Shown here in pieces: positions 8,450-56,495 of a stretch of DNA of 64,000 nucleotides (its first letter is position 1; every line of letters starts with the position of its first letter). Under the pieces are notes generated by a model. It did not search any database. It was not told the origin of the DNA and saw only the letters and a program-made list of their open reading frames with translations. This DNA is from Sagittula sp. P11 (GTDB lineage: Bacteria; Pseudomonadota; Alphaproteobacteria; Rhodobacterales; Rhodobacteraceae): the NCBI RefSeq assembly GCF_002814095.1, contig NZ_CP021913.1, forward strand, positions 558,001 to 622,000, read 5' to 3'. A program made the translations under genes and the position numbers.

Positions 8450-9400
8450 TCAGACCACCGGGGTCAGGACCGGCTCTCCGCGCAGGTGGGCGCGCAGGTT
8501 CTTCACCACGAGGTCGCCCATTGCCGCGCGGGTCTTGTGCGTGGCGCTGCCGATGTGCGGCAGCAAGACGACGTTCTCCTGTGTCCGGAGCGCCTCCGGC
8601 ACATGCGGTTCCTGCGCAAAGACGTCGAGCGCCGCACCCGCGATGGTGCCCTTCGACAGCGCGTCGATCAGCGCCTCTTCGTCCACCAGATCGCCGCGGG
8701 CAACGTTCACCAGCCGCCCGTCGGAGCCCAGTGCCTCCAGCACCTCGGCGCTGACGATGCCGCGCGTCTGCGGCGTGCTGGGAGCGATCACCACCAGCCA
8801 GTCGACGTCCCGCGCCATGGAGACCGGGTCGGCGTAATACTGGTAGGGCTGGTGCGCCTGCTCGGACCGGCCGTGATAGACGACGCGCATGGAGAAGGCC
8901 TGCGCCAGCCGGGCGATGGCCTTGCCGATCCGCCCCAGCCCGATGATCCCCACCGTCGCGCCGGTCAGCTCGGCGGTCAGCGGCATGGCGCCCTCGCTCT
9001 CCCACCGGCCTGCGCGGACGTATTCGTGGCTGTCGGGCACCCGGTGCGCCAGCGCCAGCATCAGGGCAAGCGTCACCTCCGCCACGCAGTCGTTCAGCAC
9101 GTCCGGCGTGTTGGTCACGCGGACGCCGTGCTCCTTCGCCGCCTCGACGTCGACCGCATCGTAACCCACCCCGAAGGAGGAGATGATCTCCAGGTCGGGC
9201 AGCGCCTCGATGATCTCGCGCGAACAGCCCGTGCCGCCGCCGGTGGCAATGAAGCGGACGCCTGCAGGCAAGGCGGCAAGGAAGGCCGCCTTGTCCTCTG
9301 CGTCGCAATAGCGGTGCAGGGTGAAATCCTGGTCGAGCTGGTCGACCACGCGCGGCGTGAGGTTTGCAACAAGGAGAAGATCGGGTTTGGTCATGGTCAT
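8450..9400 (-). CDS. D-isomer-specific 2-hydroxyacid dehydrogenase (glyoxylate/hydroxypyruvate reductase-like)
   Basis: 316 residues. NAD(P)-binding loop G-L-G-R-I-G at 154-159 and the catalytic triad R235, E264 and H282 in their family contexts (V-A-R-G-D, Q-E-P, P-H-I-G-S-A-T). The family reduces 2-oxoacids such as glyoxylate or hydroxypyruvate to D-2-hydroxyacids, or works in reverse. It starts 12 bases after the stop of the Tct large permease, so it is probably the last gene of the transport operon and acts on the imported compound. Two ATGs (9400, 9394) are possible starts; neither has a strong ribosome site. Confidence 0.88.
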   Translation of the reverse strand: MTMTKPDLLLVANLTPRVVDQLDQDFTLHRYCDAEDKAAFLAALPAGVRFIATGGGTGCSREIIEALPDLEIISSFGVGYDAVDVEAAKEHGVRVTNTPDVLNDCVAEVTLALMLALAHRVPDSHEYVRAGRWESEGAMPLTAELTGATVGIIGLGRIGKAIARLAQAFSMRVVYHGRSEQAHQPYQYYADPVSMARDVDWLVVIAPSTPQTRGIVSAEVLEALGSDGRLVNVARGDLVDEEALIDALSKGTIAGAALDVFAQEPHVPEALRTQENVVLLPHIGSATHKTRAAMGDLVVKNLRAHLRGEPVLTPVV

Positions 9401-9412
9401 ATCGGTCTTTGG

Positions 9413-10924
9413 TCAGTTGGATGTGTCGGTGGCCGCCGTCCCGGACCCTTTGCGGCGCAGCAGCATCAAGACAAGCGGCAGCATCCAGACGGCGATGGTG
9501 AACAGCCCCAGCCCGGCAGAGATGGGCCGTTCGAAGAAGGCAAGGAAGCTGCCGTCGGACTTGATCATTGAGGTGACGAAGTTCTGCTCCAGCATCGGTC
9601 CGAGCACCAGCCCGAGGATCGCGGGCGCGATGGGGATGTCGTTCTCCTCCATCAGGAAACCGATGATGCCGAAGACGAACATCAGCCAGATCCCGAAGAC
9701 GGAGTTGTTGATGGCGAAGGACCCAACCATGCAGAACATCAGGATGATCGGCATCAGCACACGCTGCGGGATGGACAACACCTGCCGCGCGCCCTTGATC
9801 GCCAGCCAGCCCAGCGGCAGCATCAACAGGTTGGCGACGAGGAAGACGATGAACACCGCGTAGATCATCTGCGGCTGGGTGATGAAGACCATCGGGCCGG
9901 GGTTGATGCCCTTGATGTAGAGCACGCCGATGACGATGGCGGTGATGGAGTCGCCGGGAATACCGAACACCAGTGCCGGGATCCACGCCCCGGACATGGC
10001 GCCGTTGTTGGCCGATCCGGCCTCTACCAGACCCTCCACGTGGCCCTTGCCGAACTTCTCGGGCGTCTTGGAGAACTTCTTGGACACCGCGTAGCTGATC
10101 CATGCGGCGATGTCGGCCCCTGCACCGGGCAATGCACCGATGGCGGTGCCAAGCGCACTGCCGCGCAGCGCCTGCACCGGGTACTTGCGCATGTTCTTGA
10201 ACTGCTCGCGAAAGATCCCGCGGTTGCCGGTGGCGGGCGGCTTCTCGTCGCTGCCACGGTGGATGAAGGCGCGGATGACCTCCGATACGGCGAACAGGCC
10301 GATCATCGCGGGAATGAACTGTACGCCGCCCATCAGCTCGACGTTGCCGAAGGTGTAGCGCGGCTCGCCGGCCGGGTTCTCCAGCCCCACCGTGGCGGCG
10401 AAGAGCCCGATGAAGAGCGAGATCAGCCCGCGCGCCGGAGAGCCCGGCGAGATGAAGACCGCGCAGGACAGGCCGAGGACGACGAGCCAGAAGTATTCGA
10501 AGGACGAGAACTTCAGCGCGACCTCGGCCAGCACCGGCGATGCGGTGATCAGCACCAGCGTGCCGAAGATGCCGCCCAGCGAGGAAAAGACCAGCGACGC
10601 ACCGAGCGCCGCCTCGGGCCTGCCCTGTTTGGTCAGGGCGTAGGCGTCCTGCACGTAGGCGGCGCTGGCGGGTGTGCCGGGCATCCTGAGCAAGGTGCCC
10701 GGGATGTCGCCTGCAAAGATCGCCATGGCGGTGGCCGTGACGATGGCGGCGATGGCGGGCACCGGCTCCATGAAGAAGGTGACGGGCACAAGGAGCGCCG
10801 TGGCCATGGTGGCCGTGAGCCCCGGGATCGCACCGACGAACATGCCGAAGGCTGCCGCGGCAAGGATGACCAGCAGGACGTATGGCTGAAAGACAAGACC
10901 GGCGGCTTCGGCGACTACGGACAT
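9413..10924 (-). CDS. tctA: Tripartite tricarboxylate transporter, large permease TctA
   Basis: 503 residues, very hydrophobic, about 12 membrane helices. The conserved Tct signatures are visible: F-V-G-A-I-P-G-L-T-A-T near residue 30 and the second P-G-x-G-A-D/P-G-I-P-G-D motifs near residues 260 and 315. TctA forms the translocation path driven by an ion gradient with TctB and the periplasmic TctC. It follows tctB by seven bases. Substrate unknown; the adjoining hydroxyacid dehydrogenase suggests a carboxylate or hydroxyacid. Confidence 0.93.
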   Translation of the reverse strand: MSVVAEAAGLVFQPYVLLVILAAAAFGMFVGAIPGLTATMATALLVPVTFFMEPVPAIAAIVTATAMAIFAGDIPGTLLRMPGTPASAAYVQDAYALTKQGRPEAALGASLVFSSLGGIFGTLVLITASPVLAEVALKFSSFEYFWLVVLGLSCAVFISPGSPARGLISLFIGLFAATVGLENPAGEPRYTFGNVELMGGVQFIPAMIGLFAVSEVIRAFIHRGSDEKPPATGNRGIFREQFKNMRKYPVQALRGSALGTAIGALPGAGADIAAWISYAVSKKFSKTPEKFGKGHVEGLVEAGSANNGAMSGAWIPALVFGIPGDSITAIVIGVLYIKGINPGPMVFITQPQMIYAVFIVFLVANLLMLPLGWLAIKGARQVLSIPQRVLMPIILMFCMVGSFAINNSVFGIWLMFVFGIIGFLMEENDIPIAPAILGLVLGPMLEQNFVTSMIKSDGSFLAFFERPISAGLGLFTIAVWMLPLVLMLLRRKGSGTAATDTSN

Positions 10925-10931
10925 GACGGCC

Positions 10932-11405
10932 TCACCAAAGGAACGGCAGGAAGGGGCTGCGCGGCAGCGGCACCAGCAGCAGCTTGCCGAAGCTCTGCTG
11001 GATCGCCAGGGCGGCGACCAGCGCGACCGGCACGGCGATCACGAGGCGCACGCCCAGAACGAGCATCGCCAGCACCATCACCGCAAGCGCCGTCGGCAGG
11101 AACCCCAGTAGTGGCGACAGCAGGATGTAGGCGAGGATCAGCAGCAGGACGCAGGCCATGCGGATCAGCGAGGCGGTGTTGCCCGTCCATTCCGCCAGCC
11201 GCAGGCCCGGCAGCCGTTCGCCCGCCATGACCGCCTTGACGATCAGGAAGAGCCCGGTCAGCACCGTCACCAGCGCGATGGCGCGCGGCATGGTGCCTGC
11301 GCCGTAGGCCTGTCCGGGGATTGCCTTGAAGTTCCAGGCCGAGATGTAGATCGCGATGCCCCCCAGCAGGGTCAACAGCCCAAGGGTCAGATCGGTGACG
11401 CGCAT
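10932..11405 (-). CDS. tctB: Tripartite tricarboxylate transporter, small permease TctB
   Basis: 157 residues with four predicted membrane helices, the second pair near the C-terminus, matching the size and topology of TctB. It lies between tctC and tctA in the usual order. Its sequence is poorly conserved in the family, so identification relies on topology and position. Confidence 0.88.
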   Translation of the reverse strand: MRVTDLTLGLLTLLGGIAIYISAWNFKAIPGQAYGAGTMPRAIALVTVLTGLFLIVKAVMAGERLPGLRLAEWTGNTASLIRMACVLLLILAYILLSPLLGFLPTALAVMVLAMLVLGVRLVIAVPVALVAALAIQQSFGKLLLVPLPRSPFLPFLW

Positions 11406-11440
11406 TCTGCTGTCCTCGTTGATTGGTCCCGGAAGACGGG

Positions 11441-11476
11441 AAAAGGGCCGGAGGTGATGCCATCATCCCCCGGCCC
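11441..11476 (-). terminator. Hairpin with T-run between tctC and tctB
   Basis: Read on the minus strand: GGGCCGG pairs with CCGGCCC (11470-11476 and 11445-11451) around an inner GATG/CATC pairing, followed by TTTT (11444-11441). It lies in the tctC-tctB gap. Partial termination here would give more binding protein than permease, as is common in such operons. Confidence 0.65.
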
Positions 11477-11493
11477 CCGCTGTCGGTCGGACC

Positions 11494-12465
11494 TTACTCG
11501 GCCGCCAGACCGGCCTTCTTCATGACCTCGCCGAAGGCGGCATCGTCGTCTGCGACGATCTGCGTGGCCTCGTCGCCGCGCGCCCACCGCAGGCCGAAGC
11601 CGCGGTCCTTCATGAACGTCTGGTACTCTTCCGAGTTGTAGGCGGTTTCGATGGCGTCCATCAGCTTGGTCTTCACGTCGTCGGGCAGACCGTCCGGAGC
11701 GGCGACGGAGCGCCACACGGCGACCGTCCAGTCAGACCCGGTGGATTCCGCCAGCGTTGGCACGTCCGGGAAGGCGTTCTGCCGTTCCGCCGACATGGTG
11801 GCCAGTGCCACGACACGGTTCGCGTCGATCATCGAACGGCCCTCGGCCAGCGACGACGGCACGATGTCCACACCGCCCGCGACCATGTCGGTCAGGCCGG
11901 GCGCGGCGCCCTGGCTGGGGACGAAGGTCACGTGGTCGGGGGCCAGCCCCTCGGACAGGAGCCACCCGGCGAGGCCTACGTGCCAGATGCCGCCCTGCCC
12001 GGTGCCGGACGCCTTGTAGGTGCCCGCAGGCTCGCTCTTTATGCTCTCCAGCAGCGCCTCGACGCTGTCGAAGCCCGAGTCGGCCGAAACCATGACGCCG
12101 CCCGGATCGGCGTTGACGATGGCGAGGATGTCGAAGTCCTCGTAGGTCAGCTCGGTCAGGCCCTGCCAGTGCATCATGTCGATCTCGATGGTCATGATGC
12201 CGATGGTGTAGCCGTCGGGCTCGGCGTTCGCGATGGCGCTGTGGCCCACCACGCCCGAGCCGCCGGTGCGGTTCACCACGTTGACCGGCACGCCCAGCTC
12301 CTTCTGGATCTCGGCGCCCAGCAGACGGCCGACGGCATCGGTGCCGCCGCCCGCGCCCCACGGCACGATCAGCTGGATCGGCCGCTCGGGGTACTCTGCC
12401 CAGGCGGCGCCGGTCACGGCGGCAAGCGTCACGGCCGCGGCGGCGGCGGTTTTCATGAAGTTCAT
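11494..12465 (-). CDS. tctC: Tripartite tricarboxylate transporter substrate-binding protein TctC
   Basis: 323 residues with a Sec signal peptide (about 1-23, cleavage after A-W-A) and the Bug/TctC family start Y-P-x-R-P-I-x-L-I-V-P-W-G-A-G-G-G-T-D. These periplasmic proteins trap a carboxylate and deliver it to TctAB. It is the first gene of the tct operon, 242 bases from the divergent LysR regulator. Confidence 0.94.
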   Translation of the reverse strand: MNFMKTAAAAAVTLAAVTGAAWAEYPERPIQLIVPWGAGGGTDAVGRLLGAEIQKELGVPVNVVNRTGGSGVVGHSAIANAEPDGYTIGIMTIEIDMMHWQGLTELTYEDFDILAIVNADPGGVMVSADSGFDSVEALLESIKSEPAGTYKASGTGQGGIWHVGLAGWLLSEGLAPDHVTFVPSQGAAPGLTDMVAGGVDIVPSSLAEGRSMIDANRVVALATMSAERQNAFPDVPTLAESTGSDWTVAVWRSVAAPDGLPDDVKTKLMDAIETAYNSEEYQTFMKDRGFGLRWARGDEATQIVADDDAAFGEVMKKAGLAAE

Positions 12466-12670
12466 GGTAATCCTCCTCTTTTCCCTGTTTCCGGCTGCGG
12501 GTCAAACGCGCCCGCGCCGCGAATCTGCGAGGGGTCGGAAGCGGATCGGCACGCCCGCGGCACATGTCCGCATGGCGCCGATGCTGTCCGTGGTTCCCCC
12601 CGTAGTCTCCTCCACCGTTGACGCTATCCAGCGCAGTGATAACGTTCCAATGAAACAATCCACTTCTGCG

Positions 12671-12685
12671 ATCGCGAAAAGCGAT
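12671..12685. promoter_or_regulatory. Candidate LysR-type operator (T-N11-A palindrome)
   Basis: ATCGC-GAAAA-GCGAT is a perfect 5-bp palindrome with a 5-base centre that also fits the T-N11-A rule for LysR boxes. It sits between tctC and the LysR gene, 22 bases before the proposed start of the regulator, where it could serve both control of tctCBA and autoregulation. Confidence 0.5.
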
Positions 12686-12707
12686 TGCTCTTCCGGGGAG
12701 GCACAGG

Positions 12708-13670
12708 CTGGACAGGGACATCACCGCCAACCTCAAGGTGCGGCATCTTTCGCTGATCGTGGCGCTTGCCGATCACGGCACGACCCACAGCGCGGCGGAC
12801 GCGCTCAACATGACGCAATCGACCGCGTCCAAGATGCTGCGGGACGTCGAGGAGATCTTTCAGGCCTCCCTGTTCGAGCGCAGCCCGCGCGGCATGGTGC
12901 TGACGCCGCTGGGCCAGTTCGCCGTGGACAACGCGCGGGCGCAACTTTCGCGGCTGCAACGGTTTTCCGAGGAGTTCTCCGCCCGGCGTGCCGGCGGTTA
13001 CGGGACGCTGGCCATCGGCGCCATCACCGGGGCGGCGCCGGACCTGGTGGCCCGCGCCGTGGCCGAGATCAAGGCCCGCCGCCCGCAGCTCTCCGTGGCT
13101 CTGCACGGAGAGACCAGCGACGGCATCCTGTCGGAACTGGAGGCCGGGCGGCTCGACCTGGCCGTCGGGCGGTTCAGCGCAGAACGGCACAGGACCGTGT
13201 TCTCCTTCGAACCGCTGGCGGAGGAACGGCTAGTCGTGGTGGCGCGCTCCGGTCACAGGCTGGCCAGCGGCGCGCGGCGGCTCGACGACCTCCAGGACTG
13301 CGCCTGGGCGTTGCAGCCGGAAAGCAACCCCTCACGCCAGGTGCTCGACGCGGCCTTCGACCGGGCGGGCCTGCGGCGTCCGCGGGACACCATCGAATGT
13401 TCGTCGATCCTGCTGATCCTGAACTTGGTGCAGGAGTCCGAGGCCGTGGCCCTGCTGCCCGCAGCGGTGGTTCAGGCGCATGTGAAGGCAGGATTGTTCA
13501 CCGTCCTGGACATACGGCCGGAGATCCGGCTGTCGGGCTTCGGCCTCGTCACGCGCCGCAAGGAACCGCTGGAGCCCGTCGCGCTGGAGTTCTGCGACAT
13601 CCTGCGCGCCCGCGCCCGCGGGGACAGCCCGCGCCGGACGACCGGGCGCGCCGGGTCTTCCCGAACCTAG
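12708..13670 (+). CDS. LysR-family transcriptional regulator (probable CTG start)
   Basis: 320 residues from a CTG at 12708. N-terminal winged HTH (about residues 12-70 with the S-A-A-D-A-L-N-M-T-Q-S-T-A-S-K pattern) and a C-terminal substrate-binding domain. The first GTG in frame (12738) has no ribosome site and would remove residues (L-D-R-D-I-T-A-N-L-K) that LysR proteins of this type normally carry, whereas the CTG has GGGGAGG six bases upstream. It is divergent from tctC and is the likely regulator of the tct/dehydrogenase operon. The CTG start is inferred. Confidence 0.85.
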   Translation: MDRDITANLKVRHLSLIVALADHGTTHSAADALNMTQSTASKMLRDVEEIFQASLFERSPRGMVLTPLGQFAVDNARAQLSRLQRFSEEFSARRAGGYGTLAIGAITGAAPDLVARAVAEIKARRPQLSVALHGETSDGILSELEAGRLDLAVGRFSAERHRTVFSFEPLAEERLVVVARSGHRLASGARRLDDLQDCAWALQPESNPSRQVLDAAFDRAGLRRPRDTIECSSILLILNLVQESEAVALLPAAVVQAHVKAGLFTVLDIRPEIRLSGFGLVTRRKEPLEPVALEFCDILRARARGDSPRRTTGRAGSSRT

Positions 13671-13749: not shown

Positions 13750-14628
13750 TCAGCGCGCCTGTTCCAGTTCGGAGAGGGCGTCGCGCAGGGTCTCGACCTC
13801 GTTGAGGTGGTGCAACGCGGCGTCGCCCAGGGCTTCGGCGGTATCGGCGGCCAGCAGGCGCAGAACCGTCATGACGCCCACGTAGCTGTCCAGCGGCAAG
13901 GCGGTCTCCACCGCGCAGGTCAGCGTCCATGTGGCGAAGGCGGGCGCTTCGCGCAGCCCTTTGTCCGCCACCAGGACAAGCCGCGCGCCGCGCCCGGCCA
14001 GCAGCCGCACGAGGTGCCCGAACTGCGCCGGGCGGCGGCGCAGGCCGATCACCACGACCACGTCGCCCGGGCCGACCCCGGCGATGCCTTCTGCCAGCGT
14101 CTGCCCTTCCAGCGCGAGGGGCGCCACATCGGCCCGCAACTGCGCAAGCTGTGCGGTCAGGTAATCCGCGAGGAAACGGCTGTTCCGGAACCCGATAAGG
14201 CGCACCTGACGCGCCTCCGCCAGTGCCCCGGCGATCTCGACCAACATGCGCGGGTCGATCTGGGCCAGCGTCGCCTCGATCACGCCTGCCTCCGCGCGCA
14301 GCAGGTCGGCATGGCTCGACGCCATCTGCATGTCGCCCTTCATGAACAGCGGGGAGCCGGTCTCGCGCAGGGTGCGGGCGTCCTGGCGCGCATCCTCGAA
14401 ACTGCGATAGCCGAGCCGCTGCACGAAGCGGCTGACCGTCGCGTTGGACACCCCCGCCAACCCGGCCAGTTCCGAGGCGGTCCAGACCGGCATCTCGGAG
14501 GGCGCATTCAGGATCGTGTCCGCCACGCGCGTCTCGCGGTCGGGCAGGCTGGCATAGGTCTCGTGGATTCGCCGCAGCAGGGAGCCACGCGCATCGGAAG
14601 GGGCGTCAGCGTTCATGTTCCATGACAT
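13750..14628 (-). CDS. RpiR/MurR-family transcriptional regulator
   Basis: 292 residues: an N-terminal HTH_6 domain (about 20-95, with V-A-D-x-I-L and the G-V-S-N-A-T-V-S-R-F recognition helix) and a C-terminal SIS domain (about 130-270) that in relatives binds phospho-sugars. Here the SIS may bind another ligand. It is divergent from the ABC importer/catabolic operon and is its likely repressor or activator. The ATG at 14628 lies close to an AAGGGG site; an ATG at 14616 is also possible. Confidence 0.9.
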   Translation of the reverse strand: MSWNMNADAPSDARGSLLRRIHETYASLPDRETRVADTILNAPSEMPVWTASELAGLAGVSNATVSRFVQRLGYRSFEDARQDARTLRETGSPLFMKGDMQMASSHADLLRAEAGVIEATLAQIDPRMLVEIAGALAEARQVRLIGFRNSRFLADYLTAQLAQLRADVAPLALEGQTLAEGIAGVGPGDVVVVIGLRRRPAQFGHLVRLLAGRGARLVLVADKGLREAPAFATWTLTCAVETALPLDSYVGVMTVLRLLAADTAEALGDAALHHLNEVETLRDALSELEQAR

Positions 14629-14798
14629 TTACCCCTTTTCATCGACATGCAAACTCATTTTCACCGCCACCTGCTCCGTCATGCCGCCCCCTCTCCCCAT
14701 ATCGAAAACGACCGTTTCCCGGGCGCCGGCACGCCGGGTCTGCCACATTTCCGGGCAAACCGTGGCCGCAATCCTGTTTTCACCATTTTAACTTATAC

Positions 14799-14812
14799 GA
14801 AAATCAGTTTTC
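14799..14812. promoter_or_regulatory. Candidate RpiR operator
   Basis: GAAAA-TCAG-TTTTC is a perfect inverted repeat in the 294-base gap between the RpiR gene and the solute-binding protein. TTTTCA half-sites recur nearby (around 14636, 14657 and 14776). GAAA/TTTC palindromes are typical of RpiR family operators. The same gap must hold both divergent promoters. Confidence 0.45.
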
Positions 14813-50547: not shown

Positions 50548-51711
50548 ATGCCCGTCATCACCAACATCGAGGACCTCAAGCGCGTCTACCGCCGCCGCGT
50601 GCCGAAGATGTTCTATGACTACTGCGAATCCGGGTCGTGGTCGGAACAGACCTTCCGCGAGAACGTCTCGGACTTCGACGACATCTACCTGCGCCAGCGC
50701 GTCGCCATCGACATGGCCAACCGTTCGACGAAGACGCAGATGATCGGGCAGGACGTGGCAATGCCCGTGGCGCTCGCCCCGGTCGGGCTGACCGGCATGC
50801 AGAACGCCGACGGCGAGATCAAGGCGGCCCGCGCCGCCGAGGCCTTCGGGGTGCCCTACTGCCTGTCCACCATGTCGATCTGTTCCATCGAGGACGTGGC
50901 CTCGCACACCTCGAAACCCTTCTGGATGCAGGTCTACACCCTGAAGGACGACGACTACATGCAGCGGCTCTTCGACCGGGCGAAGGCGGCGAAATGTTCG
51001 GCCGCCGTCATCACCGTCGACCTGCAGCTTCTGGGCCAGCGCCACAAGGACCTGAAGAACGGCCTCTCGGCCCCGCCGAAGCTGACGCCGAAGTCCGTGG
51101 CCAACATGATGACCAAGGTGCCGTGGGGGCTGGAAATGCTCCAGACCAAGCGCCGCTTCTTCGGCAACATCGTGGGCCATGCCAAGGGGGTCACCGATCC
51201 CTCGTCGCTGACCACCTGGACCGCCGAAAGCTTCGACCAGTCGCTGAACTGGGACCGTATCCGCGAATTCCGCAAGATGTGGGACGGGCCGCTCATCATC
51301 AAGGGCATCATCGACCCGCGCGATGCGCTGGAGGCCTGCAACGTCGGTGCCGACGCCATCGTGGTGTCGAACCACGGCGGCCGGCAGCTTGACGGCGCGC
51401 TGTCATCCATCCGCGCGCTGGAACCGATCCTCGACGCCGTGGGCGACCGGATCGAGGTGCATCTCGATTCAGGTGTCCGCTCCGGTCAGGACGTGCTGAA
51501 GGCGGTGGCCATGGGCGCCAAGGGCTGCTGGATCGGCCGCGCCTACGTCTACGGGCTGGGCGCCATGGGCCAGGCCGGCGTCACCAAGGCGCTGGAGGTC
51601 ATCCACAAGGAACTCGACACCTCCATGGCGCTCTGCGGGCACCGCGACATCAACACCGTCGACCGCGACATCCTCATGGTCCCGCGCGGCTTCTCCGGCG
51701 ACTGGGCCTGA
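50548..51711 (+). CDS. lldD: FMN-dependent alpha-hydroxyacid dehydrogenase (L-lactate dehydrogenase family)
   Basis: 387 residues, TIM barrel. The catalytic His276 sits in V-S-N-H-G-G-R-Q-L-D-G, and the N-terminal R-R-x-P-K-M-F-Y-D-Y motif matches LldD. It oxidises L-lactate or a similar 2-hydroxyacid to the 2-oxoacid. No lactate permease is adjacent. Exact substrate uncertain. Confidence 0.9.
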   Translation: MPVITNIEDLKRVYRRRVPKMFYDYCESGSWSEQTFRENVSDFDDIYLRQRVAIDMANRSTKTQMIGQDVAMPVALAPVGLTGMQNADGEIKAARAAEAFGVPYCLSTMSICSIEDVASHTSKPFWMQVYTLKDDDYMQRLFDRAKAAKCSAAVITVDLQLLGQRHKDLKNGLSAPPKLTPKSVANMMTKVPWGLEMLQTKRRFFGNIVGHAKGVTDPSSLTTWTAESFDQSLNWDRIREFRKMWDGPLIIKGIIDPRDALEACNVGADAIVVSNHGGRQLDGALSSIRALEPILDAVGDRIEVHLDSGVRSGQDVLKAVAMGAKGCWIGRAYVYGLGAMGQAGVTKALEVIHKELDTSMALCGHRDINTVDRDILMVPRGFSGDWA

Positions 51712-51726
51712 CATCCGGGCTGCGGC

Positions 51727-51751: not shown

Positions 51752-51968
51752 CCGGCCATTGTTTCCCGCCTCACACCAGTCCCGCGGCGGAACATCGTTA
51801 ACCGCCGAAGTTGGCATCGAAACAATCCGTTTCCAAATGCGCCGCCTTGGTTTTGCCTCAATCTGACGTAATTGCCGAATTGCTGCCGTATTCTCCCCTG
51901 CGCGAGCCGCATCTAGCCGCGCTTTCGCCAAAATGTGCCCATTCCGGCCATATTTCAGGGAGACTTCA

Positions 51969-52868
51969 ATGCCAGACCCCAAGGTATTCAACTACACGAT
52001 GGACGGGCTGTCCTATTCGGTCACCGTCTACGAAGAGGACGGAAAGATCCTCGCCGACATCGAGATGCTCGAAGGCTCGATGGACGTGAACGCCGTCTAC
52101 TTCGGTGACGACGACTATTCCGGCTCCAGCACATCGCTTGGCGGCCCGCTCAACATGAACGGCGCGCAGTACGACGGCGAGAAGGTGCAATGGGACGGCG
52201 CCTCCTACGTCAGCGACCCCGGCCTCGGGCCCGACGCCGACGAGAAGGAAAGCTACATCCACGCCGGTGACACGCTGACCCTCGAACTCGACGCCGACAG
52301 CCTCGACGACATCGACATCTTCGGCATCCGCGCCACCTCCACCACGACCGACGCCGGCTCCATCAAGGCCGTCTCCGGCGATCCCGAGGAACCGGAAGAG
52401 CCCGAGGACCCCGATGAGCCGACCTTCGACAAGGTCCTCTTCGGCACCGAGGTGGACGAAGCCGGCAACGTGATCGACGGCGTCACCCTCACCGCGCTCG
52501 ACGATCCGGCCTACGGCATCCAGCTCCCCGAGGGGACCGAGCCCACCTTCGACAACTACCTCGCCTTCTTCGACGAGGAGGTCGAGGGCTACGACGTGGA
52601 GTCCCTCGAAACCATCCGCTTCTTCACCACCAGCCCCGAAGGCTGGGCGGTCCAGATCGGAGAGCTCCCCGCCCCCGAGGACGGCTGGACCAGCGTCGAC
52701 GACGTGCTCGAGGACTACGACGCCCTGGTCGATTCCGGCGCCTTCGATACCGAAGACCCCGGCGCCGAGGGCCTGAGCCTGATCGCCGCGCTCAGCACCG
52801 GCGACGAGGAAGAGGACGCCCCCGTCGAAGAAGAGCCCGAACCCGAAGCGGAGATGGACCTCGTCTGA
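51969..52868 (+). CDS. Highly acidic protein, function unknown
   Basis: 299 residues, very rich in Asp and Glu, with Glu-Pro repeats at about 150-165 and near the end. No signal peptide or membrane helix. The N-terminal third (about 1-130) looks beta-rich; the end is acidic then M-D-L-V, which recalls type I secretion substrates but without RTX repeats. AGGGAGA precedes the ATG. No family recognised. Confidence 0.7.
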   Translation: MPDPKVFNYTMDGLSYSVTVYEEDGKILADIEMLEGSMDVNAVYFGDDDYSGSSTSLGGPLNMNGAQYDGEKVQWDGASYVSDPGLGPDADEKESYIHAGDTLTLELDADSLDDIDIFGIRATSTTTDAGSIKAVSGDPEEPEEPEDPDEPTFDKVLFGTEVDEAGNVIDGVTLTALDDPAYGIQLPEGTEPTFDNYLAFFDEEVEGYDVESLETIRFFTTSPEGWAVQIGELPAPEDGWTSVDDVLEDYDALVDSGAFDTEDPGAEGLSLIAALSTGDEEEDAPVEEEPEPEAEMDLV

Positions 52869-53006: not shown

Positions 53007-53258
53007 TCAGCCCTTGCCGCCCGTGCCGTCCGTTCCGCCATCGCTCTCCTGGGCGAGGCGCGCGGCCCGCAGCGCGGCGGTCTTCTCGTCCCGCTTCCGC
53101 GTCTCCGTGTCGATCAGCTCCTTGGCGACCTCCGAGGTCTTCTCCATCGCGGTCTTCGGATGCGGCTTCACCGCCTTGAACGCCGATTCAAGACGTGTGC
53201 GGCGCGCGTCGGCCGTTTCCGCGCGCGCCTTCATCATGTCTCCGAACGTCGGCTTCAC
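53007..53258 (-). CDS. Small charged protein coupled to cspA
   Basis: 83 residues, rich in Lys, Arg, Glu and Ala, predicted mostly helical, with a Gly/Asp tail. It begins at GTG 53258, overlapping the cspA stop as GTGA, so the two are coupled. No family recognised; the tight coupling to a cold-shock protein hints at an RNA-related role. Confidence 0.75.
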   Translation of the reverse strand: MKPTFGDMMKARAETADARRTRLESAFKAVKPHPKTAMEKTSEVAKELIDTETRKRDEKTAALRAARLAQESDGGTDGTGGKG

Positions 53259-53461
53259 GCCAGTTCCACGTCCTTGGCGGATTCGCGACCGTCGCGACCC
53301 TCCTCGATCTCGAACGTCAGAGCCTGGCCGTCTTCCACGGTCCGCAGCCCCGCCCGTTCGAGCGCCGAGATGTGCAGGAACACGTCCTTGCTCCCGCCCT
53401 CAGGCTGGATGAAGCCGAAGCCCTTGTTTGCATTGAACCATTTCACGGTGCCTTTGGCCAT
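53255..53461 (-). CDS. Cold-shock protein, CspA family
   Basis: 68 residues, single CSD with RNP1 K-G-F-G-F-I (13-18) and RNP2 V-F-L-H-I (27-31). It binds single-stranded RNA/DNA and melts RNA structure. First gene of a two-gene operon. Confidence 0.95.
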   Translation of the reverse strand: MAKGTVKWFNANKGFGFIQPEGGSKDVFLHISALERAGLRTVEDGQALTFEIEEGRDGRESAKDVELA

Positions 53462-53605: not shown

Positions 53606-53621
53606 GGGGGGGGGGGGGGGG
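53606..53621 (+). repeat. 16-base poly-G tract
   Basis: An unbroken run of 16 G between cspA and the low-GC gene. Such runs are prone to slippage and to assembly error. Confidence 0.9.
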
Positions 53622-53800
53622 CGTGAAGACAATTGTCGGCACGACTACAACCATCTGTCGATTGAAAACCACCAACGAGACAAGAAAGTCAACCAATCCA
53701 ATTTATACCGGACAGTCCCACTGGCGCCCCGGATCGTCGATAAAAGTTGCGAGATTCTTCAAAATTCGCTTATCTTTCAAGTGAAACGGAGGGCGCCACC

Positions 53801-55600
53801 TTGCATGATCTGAAGATAATCGACGCATACCTTTCCATTCCAGCGGGAATTGAGTTTAAAGTTCCCAAATTTACAGTCATAATTGGGCAAAACGGTAGCG
53901 GAAAATCTCACCTTTTACAAGCACTATCAGGATTACACAGCCGATCAAAAAACACAGGCAACCCTCGAGCAGTTCAAATTCGTTTAGGCGCCCTGACTAA
54001 ATTCGGGAACAGACCTTATGATGTCGCAAGAATTTTTGAAGACCTCAAGAGACAGTCATCCTGGATCAAGATAGCCCTCAAGACATTCGCACTCGACGAC
54101 ATCGGAAGCATGGAAGAGAGATTGAAAGAAACCGAATTCGAAAGAGGTCAATACCTAGACGAAAGGGGCGCGATAGAATTCCTTATCAAAGCGCATGAAT
54201 TAGGATTTGATCTGTCAAAACCGACACCTTATATAGCAGGGTTACTCACGCCAATTTCCAAGCTATCAGAAACATCCCTATTGAACCTGAAAGACGTGGA
54301 CCTAAAGTCATTGTTTTTTGAATACAAAACAAGACAAAGTCACAACGATTTTGTCGCCTATCAGTTTCAGAGCGGAAAGAATCCATTCAAACCGCTTTCG
54401 GAAATCGAATTTAAAGAATTCTTTGGGCCCTCGCCTTGGGAGTCCCTTAATGACACGCTTGAGCAATTAGGCCTGCCCTATGAATTTCAAGAGCCACCCG
54501 ACCCGTTGGATTTCGATGACTACAAAATAGAACTACTTCACAAAAGCAAAGGAATTGGTGTTGAACCATCATCCCTATCATCTGGGGAACTAACACTCCT
54601 TTCGATCTCCACTCTTATGAATATCTTGCCCGCCACTGGAAATAAAGATCTTATCCTGCTTTTTGATGAACCCGACGCCAGCCTGCATCCATCAAATTGC
54701 AAAACTCTCGTAAAATTAATCCGCGAGTCTTTAGTAGGGAAGCACGGATACTCAGCCATTGTAACCACTCACTCCCCAACAACTGTGGCAATTTGCCCTG
54801 AAGACTCAATATATGAAATGAATGCTTTAAGCAGGACACCTGAAAAAATAGAACAACAAAAGGCGCTAGATGTGCTGACCGAAGGCGTTGACGAGTTCCG
54901 AATTTCTACAAAAAACATCCGCCAGATTTACACTGAGGGAGCCGATCCTGAAATCTACCAACAGCTATTTTTTTGCCTCAACAGAGCGAAGCCCTTCAAC
55001 TACCGGGCCGTGTTCCCCCAGACCGGAGGAAGAGCGAACCGAGAGACGGTCGTCAACATTGTTAAACTATTGAACGACGCCGGGAACGATTTAGCGAAAG
55101 GAGTCACAGACTGGGACACAGTTGAAACAAGACTAATTGCACCAAACGTTGAAATCCTTGGAGGCAATAGGTACTCCTTGGAAAACTACATCCTTGATCC
55201 GATTTACGTAGCCTTGGCGACACGCGCGCCAAACTCAAACAGGCCTTTCTCTAATTTAGATTTAAATTGGGAGATCGGGCTTTCAGAGATTTTCGCAATG
55301 AAGGGGAAAGACCTTCAAGCGCTTTCCGATTCGGTTCTACAAAGATGCGAGATCGATCCAGAACATGAAACTGAATGCTTGCTGGAAAACGGAGAAAGCG
55401 TCAAACTCCCAAATAAATTTTTAAAACTAAAAGGCCACACATGGTCTCATGCATTAGTAAAGCACTTTGGCAACGAACTAAAACGGTTCACTAATAGCGA
55501 TCCTCATTACGACAAGCTGATGCCTCTACTGATGAAGACAATCCGCGATTTTCCCGCATTCTTATCGGTCGACATTCGTTACACGTTTGACAAATTTTAA
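53801..55600 (+). CDS. ABC-type ATPase fused to TOPRIM/DUF4435-like nuclease domain (candidate defence protein)
   Basis: 599 residues, AT-rich (about 40-45% GC in sampled lines), unlike every neighbour. ATPase half: Walker A G29-x-N-G-S-G-K-S36, signature S-S-G-E at 260-263, Walker B L-L-F-D289-E290, H-loop H324. C-terminal half: E379 in T-E-G-A-D, D437-W-D439, and R-Y-S-L-E461-N-Y, which together fit a TOPRIM/DUF4435 nuclease (Glu, then DxD). OLD nucleases and fused AriA-AriB of PARIS share this build. I take TTG 53801, seven bases after GGAGGG; an upstream TTG (53747) has no such site. No partner gene is adjacent; it sits alone between cspA and rplY. Anti-phage action is inference. Confidence 0.82.
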   Translation: MHDLKIIDAYLSIPAGIEFKVPKFTVIIGQNGSGKSHLLQALSGLHSRSKNTGNPRAVQIRLGALTKFGNRPYDVARIFEDLKRQSSWIKIALKTFALDDIGSMEERLKETEFERGQYLDERGAIEFLIKAHELGFDLSKPTPYIAGLLTPISKLSETSLLNLKDVDLKSLFFEYKTRQSHNDFVAYQFQSGKNPFKPLSEIEFKEFFGPSPWESLNDTLEQLGLPYEFQEPPDPLDFDDYKIELLHKSKGIGVEPSSLSSGELTLLSISTLMNILPATGNKDLILLFDEPDASLHPSNCKTLVKLIRESLVGKHGYSAIVTTHSPTTVAICPEDSIYEMNALSRTPEKIEQQKALDVLTEGVDEFRISTKNIRQIYTEGADPEIYQQLFFCLNRAKPFNYRAVFPQTGGRANRETVVNIVKLLNDAGNDLAKGVTDWDTVETRLIAPNVEILGGNRYSLENYILDPIYVALATRAPNSNRPFSNLDLNWEIGLSEIFAMKGKDLQALSDSVLQRCEIDPEHETECLLENGESVKLPNKFLKLKGHTWSHALVKHFGNELKRFTNSDPHYDKLMPLLMKTIRDFPAFLSVDIRYTFDKF

Positions 55601-55704
55601 AAATCCCCGTCGGCCGGCCCGCACGCACAGCGTGTTGGGCCGCGGTCCAAAAACCAAACGTAGCAATGAGCGCACAATATGCCATTAACCCATTGTTAAC
55701 AAAA

Positions 55705-55727
55705 GGAGGTTTCGCCGCGAAACCTCC
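55705..55727. other. Hairpin in the rplY leader
   Basis: GGAGGTTTC (55705-55713) pairs with GAAACCTCC (55719-55727) over a 5-base loop, in the 265-base gap before rplY. It may end the ATPase transcript or form part of the rplY leader. Confidence 0.45.
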
Positions 55728-55766
55728 CTCCCGGCACCGAGCCTTCATCCGGGGCCCCGTGGGCTC

Positions 55767-55777
55767 CAGATAAGCCT
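55767..55777 (+). repeat. Right copy of 11-base direct repeat
   Basis: CAGATAAGCCT, the match to 53578-53588; together they bracket 2.2 kb that includes the low-GC gene. Confidence 0.45.
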
Positions 55778-55865
55778 TGCCAAATCCCCCGATCCGCGCT
55801 ACCCGCACGACCTCACGCGGGGTGACAGCCTTGGAGGCACCCCGCCCTAACTTATGGAGAAACAA

Positions 55866-56495
55866 ATGGCTGGTGAGATTCCGGATCTTCAGGCCCAGGA
55901 ACGCACGGGGACGGGCAAGGGCGCCGCTCGCGCCGCACGCCGTGACGGCATGGTTCCTGGCATCGTGTTTGGTGGCGACAAAGAGCCCCTGCCGATCAAC
56001 ATCCCCTTCAACGTGCTGCTGAAGCGCCTCAAGCAGGGCCGCTTCAAGTCGACCCTCTTCAACCTGCAGGTCGAAGGCCACGAGGACGTCCGCGTCATCT
56101 GCCGCGACGTGCAGCGCGATATCGTGAAGGACCTTCCGACCCACGTCGACTTCATGCGCCTGCGCCGCACCTCGAAGGTGAACCTCTTCATTCCCGTCGA
56201 ATTCCTCAACGAAGAGACCGCCCCCGGCATTCGCAAGGGCGGCGTCCTGACCGTCGTGCGTCCGGAAGTCGAGCTGGTCGTGACCGCCGGCGAGATCCCG
56301 GAGAAGGTCGTGGTCGACCTCGGCGGCATGCAGATCGGCGACATCGTTCACATCAACGACGTCACCCTCCCCGAGGGCACGAAGGCCACCATCGACCGGA
56401 ACTTCGTCATCGCCAACATCTCGGCACCGTCGGGCCTCAAGGCCTCCGACGACGCGGATGAAGCGGCCGAAGAGACCGAAGAAGCCGAAGCCTGA
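55866..56495 (+). CDS. rplY: 50S ribosomal protein L25/CTC
   Basis: 209 residues: an L25 domain (about 1-95) that binds 5S rRNA plus the CTC/TL5 C-terminal domain and an acidic Glu-rich tail. N-terminus M-A-G-E-I-P-D is typical of the group. I take ATG 55866, six bases after GGAG; an ATG at 55854 is also in frame. Confidence 0.96.

Follow-up and report, generated by a model that had tools for sequence, protein, structure and literature searches.

A gene encoding a 599-residue fusion of an ABC ATPase with a putative TOPRIM nuclease of the DUF4435/AriB kind was found in a 64,000-nucleotide stretch of Sagittula sp. P11 (Rhodobacteraceae; NZ_CP021913.1, positions 558,001 to 622,000), which is referred to here as the window. 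We consider it fairly probable that this gene (53801..55600, + strand) is a horizontally acquired one-protein anti-phage system of the abortive-infection type, in which the ATPase half would sense infection and free the TOPRIM nuclease. As judged from sequence, this reading is based on the fusion itself, intact sites, the lack of a recurrent partner, an AT-rich and mobile family, and a location within an insertion hotspot. Curated cut-offs for DUF4435 and for the OLD-like TOPRIM miss the protein, despite relatives at no fewer than 186 genome and 62 viral loci. Should it defend its host, the protein would represent a widespread system contained in one easily cloned gene, and it would serve as a natural test of the need for nuclease release in PARIS-type activation.

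Domain Architecture and Conserved Sites

Collection of relatives required a profile. A tblastn search over 72,556 plasmid records returned four relatives, none of them enterobacterial, the same program retrieved nothing from 50,697 phage records, and single-sequence scans of genome and viral contigs found no relative. A five-sequence profile (the window protein and the four plasmid relatives) recovered at least 186 encoding genome loci, 80 of which were kept, along with 62 viral loci, 57 of them above 150 bits. The final set of 146 loci (80 genome, 62 viral, and four plasmid) contains a matching open reading frame (ORF) in 144 cases, 141 of them above 150 bits. After 14 ORFs too short to align with the window protein were dropped, the remaining 130 yielded 131 full-length sequences with the window protein included; duplicates, of which there are at least four pairs, were kept.

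The N-terminal half (residues 1–355, 53801..54865, + strand) is an ABC/AAA_21 ATPase according to Pfam and to an AlphaFold2 model. AAA_21 matches with an E value of 4.7e-22 and 79.8 bits (cut-off 27) over residues 42–347 of a longer, 617-residue version of the protein, the numbering of which becomes that of the 599-residue version by subtracting 18. We take GQNGSGKS (K35) to be the Walker A motif, SSGE at residues 260–263 the signature, D289-E290 the Walker B motif, and H324 the H-loop. Among the 131 full-length sequences, K35, D289/E290, and H324 are each 100% conserved, and the signature (S278-S279-G280-E281 in the longer version) is conserved at 100/76/100/100%; the intact ABC ATPase site claimed in the original prediction is thus present in full, with only the second Ser varying. 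The top PADLOC models for the whole protein include AriA (1.2e-23), mad3 (7.6e-22), ATPase-Toprim_I-B (7.8e-18), AbiLi (1.3e-17), and AriAB (4.3e-14).

The C-terminal half (54866..55600, + strand) carries E379, D437-x-D439, and R457-Y-S-L-E461-N462, and is assigned as a DUF4435/AriB-type TOPRIM domain by PADLOC AriB and by hhalign. Searched as a separate fragment, it matches the PADLOC AriB profile with an E value of 3.3e-4. For profile–profile comparison, a 77-member C-terminal alignment was set against eight DUF4435 proteins (from eight of 249 genomes) and against 25 OLD-like TOPRIM loci (31 of 150 genomes matched). The DUF4435 set aligned with a probability of 94% (E 1.5e-7, score 57.6), placing E379, D437-x-D439, and RY-x-x-EN in register, versus a probability of 2.6% for the OLD-like TOPRIM set; the top score among 40 column-shuffled DUF4435 controls was 19.1. 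This profile–profile match shows remote kinship only, and the C-terminal profile, run against the 33 DUF4435 and OLD proteins, matched one PARIS fusion (E 1e-4) and no other. Conservation in the full-length set is 99% for E379, 99/100% for D437/D439, 90% for E461, and 93% for N462 (N480 in the longer version), and E379, D437, and D439 are invariant in an 80-sequence alignment. In the profile alignment, E379 is paired with the leading acidic residue of the DUF4435 motif. The TOPRIM/DUF4435 layout proposed from these residues is supported, and nothing placed the C-terminus outside that group.

The AlphaFold2 model of the whole protein has a mean predicted local distance difference test score (pLDDT) of 83, dropping to low confidence around residues 70–164, and the C-terminal half reaches a pLDDT of 90. 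In the C-terminal fold, by our reading of the model, E379 would come after strand one and D437/D439 after a later strand, fitting a TOPRIM domain.

A Mobile Family without a Recurrent Partner

Relatives come from several phyla and from prophages and plasmids as well as chromosomes, with identities to the window protein of 23–34% in a 77-row alignment. Within the host family, matches at E ≤ 0.001 were obtained in 60 of the 295 genomes drawn, which include that of Sagittula sp. P11, but a full-length match in its own genome only; the matches in the other 59 are short, at most 27.9 bits, and mostly confined to the signature/Walker B region. A search of its own genome with the candidate gene likewise returned only the gene itself.

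Low guanine-plus-cytosine (GC) content characterizes both the gene and its family. The GC of the candidate gene is 0.439, against a mean of 0.677 (standard deviation 0.026, minimum 0.626) for 582 overlapping stretches of equal length from the rest of the window, and its GC at third codon positions is 0.45, against 0.84–0.93 for rplY, lldD, and pth. The foreign composition of this AT-rich single-gene segment was thus borne out. Across 132 family loci with flanks of at least 3 kb, the gene lies below its flanks in GC in 129 (median 9.9 points), by more than 5 points in 110; none exceeds its flanks by more than 5 points.

Neighbors were clustered for 141 loci, taking on each side as many as four ORFs of 100 residues or more. 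The commonest neighbor family occurs at 10 of the 141 loci and two others at eight, in line with the earlier suggestion that the protein acts without a partner gene. Pfam assigns the representatives of two recurrent families to SRAP (10 loci) and D12-class DNA methyltransferase (eight loci); other recurrent neighbors are presumably lysozyme, tail, and terminase genes. The relative on a Croceicoccus plasmid adjoins type I restriction genes. Neither the family nor an lldD–rplY hotspot was recognized as described in a literature search of limited depth, and the family is apparently one of widespread, unstudied one-gene proteins on prophages, plasmids, and chromosomes.

As a separate observation, the relative on a Caballeronia plasmid is flanked by two very long TIR-annotated genes (L033:1219-5562 and 8875-13275), the first of which contains nSTAND1 NTPase and WD40 domains by Pfam; these surroundings look like a plasmid defense island.

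The gene start was assigned with the help of the same family. The frame is open on the + strand from 53747 to 55600, giving 617 residues when counted from the first TTG. An in-frame TTG at 53801 (599 residues) is the likelier start, because a Shine-Dalgarno-like GGAGGG (53788..53793, + strand) lies 7 nucleotides upstream of it and because alignments of the best relatives begin at residues 22–30 of the 617-residue version.

Proposed Mode of Action

PARIS offers the closest precedent for how such a protein might work. As reported in PMC12409363, an AriA hexamer restrains AriB until a phage protein such as Ocr triggers its release, whereupon AriB cuts tRNA; the AriB E26A mutant is inactive and shows no tRNA cleavage (PMC12409363). 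Taken together with E379 at the first acidic DUF4435 position, this precedent suggests a one-chain sensor–effector that would cut nucleic acid, RNA being likelier than DNA. The ATPase half would assemble into an oligomer that keeps the TOPRIM half inactive, and the signal sensed would be a phage protein or else the disturbance of a host complex. An ATP-dependent conformational change would then free or dimerize the TOPRIM half, whose cleavage of nucleic acid would abort the infection. Host RNA, tRNA for example, would be the likeliest substrate and DNA the other option. We infer the substrate, trigger, sensing, and switching of the candidate protein by analogy.

A more specific version, "PARIS in one chain", is possible but doubtful. 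It envisages a separate class of one-gene, tRNA-cutting immune proteins that evolved apart from known fused PARIS; in Sagittula sp. P11, expression of the gene may be toggled by slippage at a run of 16 G upstream of it. With sensor, restraint, and tRNA-cutting effector in a single polypeptide, release would have to be an intramolecular switch rather than shedding of the effector.

Placement among Known Systems and Alternative Readings

The original prediction proposed the protein as a candidate OLD-like or fused PARIS-like (AriAB) defense; placement in either class 1 OLD or fused PARIS is not supported. By the published PARIS thresholds (AAA_15, 32 bits; AAA_21, 27 bits; DUF4435, 27 bits; fused profiles, 80 and 20 bits; reported in PMC9122126), the ATPase half is well above the limit for AAA_21 and reaches 60.5 bits for AAA_15, and the C-terminal half falls below that for DUF4435. 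The profile search for PARIS, OLD, and DUF4435 thus gave a divided answer: AriB and the profile–profile comparison with DUF4435 matched, but the Pfam cut-off for DUF4435 was missed, and the OLD-like TOPRIM family PF20469 matched neither the C-terminal fragment (E ≤ 1) nor anything across its own genome (E ≤ 1e-6). A quick tree of 69 rows included 49 family members (the window protein and 48 relatives), four fused PARIS proteins, 12 OLD proteins, and two-gene PARIS. It placed the family, fused PARIS, and OLD each on one side of a branch with a Shimodaira–Hasegawa-like approximate likelihood ratio (SH-aLRT) of 99; the corresponding value for two-gene PARIS is 91. Long branches occur in the window protein and in some rows of PARIS and OLD, and they come together within two-gene PARIS; the separation is therefore support, not proof.

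Several observations weigh against an AriB-like abortive-infection protein. Pfam DUF4435 scores only 13.3 bits (E 0.068) on the C-terminal fragment. Foldseek comparison of the C-terminal model, a check that had been put forward with the original prediction, gave no link to any solved TOPRIM: nothing was retrieved at E ≤ 0.001, and neither AriB nor OLD appeared among the best 50 of 995 matches. The AriB assignment therefore draws on profiles and motifs, and a structural link is putative. In hhalign the DUF4435 set itself aligns to the OLD set with a probability of just 2.9%, which makes the low OLD score of the C-terminal half a weak discriminator. In BLAST the best OLD match of the ATPase half (2.7e-6) is closer than its best match among the PARIS fusions (0.11), and OLD proteins rank first in score with the full-length family profile. 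In the quick tree the window protein has a branch of 1.91 versus a median of 0.83, and it may be under relaxed constraint. The TOPRIM domain of YbjD, a solo OLD protein, is reported to be dispensable for its phage phenotype (PMC13261556), and the archaeal OLD protein Cran1 is described as apparently not defensive (PMC12796447).

Part of this evidence would suit an OLD-like nuclease whose TOPRIM half attacks phage DNA directly, by nicking or degradation as in Gabija, instead of host RNA, a reading that we consider unlikely. Linkage of an ATPase to a TOPRIM domain within a single protein characterizes OLD (described in PMC10568477), and the candidate shares with class 1 OLD (P2 Old, Thermus OLD 6p74, and YbjD) a stand-alone ABC ATPase–TOPRIM gene, variable neighborhoods, and the affinities of the ATPase half. 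With the full-length model in Foldseek, the best 50 of 811 matches included SMC heads, OLD 6p74, retron complexes, GajA, PtuA, and an AriA–AriB complex chain; OLD 6p74 ranked 2 (600 columns), retron Eco8 9lpa 4, and GajA 8x5i 16, and the AriA–AriB chain 8v46 only 38. That ranking is dominated by the ATPase, however, SMC heads taking ranks 1 and 6, and the ATPase makes up most of what full-length searches of PDB and BFVD recovered. The C-terminal half, in contrast, sides with DUF4435 in hhalign and lacks a PF20469 match, and the family separates from OLD in the quick tree. OLD substrates are themselves unsettled: cleavage of a host tRNA has been reported for P2 Old (cited in PMC13261556). For Gabija proper (OLD class 2), no adjoining UvrD-like helicase GajB was found, the neighbors being a cold-shock gene and rplY. 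The family may be one of the 11 uncharacterized OLD clades (U1–U11) reported in PMC12796447.

That the protein is simply a divergent fused PARIS, belonging to that system, strikes us as improbable, although single-gene fused PARIS has been published (PMC9122126) and shares the domain order, with the ABC ATPase ahead of a TOPRIM profile of the DUF4435 type that carries E, D-x-D, and RY-x-x-EN motifs. The AriB match also points this way. The PADLOC model AriAB-694 (PDLC02981) gives a partial match of 50.3 bits (residues 258-467), within the range of two of three ATPase–DUF4435 fusions (74 and 39.6 bits, the third under the listing limit), and all 77 aligned family members match it at 1e-5 or better; either PADLOC model may be the counterpart of either published fused profile (80 or 20 bits). 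As a family search, AriAB-694 proved too unspecific and was set aside, being positive in 172 of 190 genomes and in 14 of 14 controls. AriAB-570 (PDLC02982) speaks against membership: the gene was absent from its 15 own-genome matches at E ≤ 10, where 18 candidates were scored after a loose prefilter and the gene was perhaps unscored, and the three fusions score 634.5, 312.6, and 212.5 bits. The window protein is also longer than the four fusions found (533-556 residues), fails the DUF4435 cut-off, and is split from fused PARIS in the quick tree. IbfA, a one-protein ATPase–TOPRIM that is reported to abort phage infection and to be homologous to HEC-04 (PMC12111858), is likewise similar in build; compared by description alone rather than by sequence, IbfA differs in having 518 residues and an operonic gene. 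A type I-B retron effector (Eco8), with its reverse transcriptase encoded elsewhere, would be a comparable ATPase–TOPRIM fusion, and the PADLOC ATPase-Toprim_I-B profile matches 77 of 77 aligned members. We nevertheless rejected this identity as extremely unlikely: RVT_1 gave no match at E ≤ 1e-5 in the Sagittula genome and none in 12 of 28 relatives' genomes searched, and no reverse-transcriptase family was recognized among the recurrent neighbors at the 141 loci. A role in housekeeping or chromosome maintenance has a parallel in Cran1, which is reported to be essential for the cell cycle (PMC12796447). It is very unlikely here given the absence of a full-length match in the 294 other host-family genomes, the foreign composition, and the spread on viral contigs and plasmids. 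The abortive-infection reading remains the one that we favor.

The lldD–rplY Interval

The candidate gene lies between lldD (50548..51711, + strand), of the flavin mononucleotide (FMN)-dependent L-lactate dehydrogenase family (NF008398, 423.9 bits, cut-off 376), and rplY (55854..56495, + strand), encoding ribosomal protein L25 (NF004128, TIGR00731). Regions upstream of rplY were compared in 23 relatives (three congeners and 20 other host-family genomes). In 19 of them, as in the Sagittula genome, lldD lies no more than 5 kb upstream of rplY; it was not seen in the fetched stretch of the other four. Of the neighbors originally named, ribosomal protein L25 and a cold-shock gene (53255..53461, − strand; PF00313) are both present, but the latter is not a stable border, having no match in any of the 23 stretches; the left border that relatives share is lldD. 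The right border is the rplY leader (55684..55853), which is shared at 91.5% identity with the nearest congener, G296. Because this match starts at 55684, the foreign stretch is over by about 55683 and the leader is native; the right end at 55865 originally drawn for the AT-rich segment (53747-55865) was accordingly too far out, although the ORF up to 55600 stood. On the left, DNA common to G296 breaks off at 51715, so everything up to 55684 is variable, the cold-shock gene along with two normal-GC ORFs. One of these ORFs (51933-52868), between lldD and the cold-shock gene, encodes an acidic protein of 311 residues with no Pfam match at E ≤ 0.1.

Alternative insertions, for which a survey of this locus had been proposed, were found in the lldD–rplY intervals of relatives, three of 19 of which hold clear low-GC cargo. 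That of G296 consists of a GmrSD_N gene and a HEPN gene (RiboL-PSP 130.1 bits, MAE_28990 110.6 bits), and that of G002, from another genus of the same family, of the same two kinds of gene. The RiboL-PSP score of the G002 HEPN gene is only 33.5 bits, far below that of G296, which suggests a separate insertion. The other 16 intervals contain no comparable low-GC block, only a few shorter ORFs 6–8 points below local GC that mostly overlap lldD. Interval lengths run from about 120 to 3,500 bp. ORFs were itemized for 12 of the intervals, and two have a confirmed MFS gene. These sequences mark the lldD–rplY interval as a hotspot for cargo, with defense-type insertions, small but minable in this lineage, and the candidate gene is neither conserved there in all relatives nor host-like in composition.

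Several features of these cargoes merit separate mention. The two low-GC GmrSD_N and HEPN pairs (L182:13043-14155 and 14165-14809; L187:9095-10237 and 10259-10885) are candidate defense cassettes in their own right. The third cargo, in G262, is a low-GC pair (L183:13097-14613) in which a gene for 252 residues without assignment overlaps a pentapeptide-repeat gene.

Evidence for a mechanism of insertion was sought in the window. No clear border repeats and no tRNA gene were found there, and terminator-like sites are fewer than in shuffled sequence. A 14-nucleotide repeat, CTNCAGATAAGCCT (53575 and 55764), was rejected as a target-site duplication, as it contains one mismatch and such repeats are estimated to occur in about this number by chance in 2.8 kb.

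The run of 16 G (53606..53621, + strand) lies in intergenic DNA upstream of the candidate gene. The next longest homopolymer in the window is 8, and on both strands of the 5.58-Mb genome the only other G run of at least 14 is at C1:3014789 (14 nucleotides, L259:1990-2003), with no C run of that length. A G/C run of at least 8 was seen in one of 134 upstream regions of relatives. The tract is a possible phase-variation tract or, alternatively, an assembly uncertainty.

The rplY leader contains an inverted repeat, GGAGGTTTCGCCGCGAAACCTCC, at 55705-55727, which may be a terminator or a mark of the insertion point. The stretch around it (55687-55758) also resembles DNA beside the G262 cargo (L183:14704-14766, 76%).

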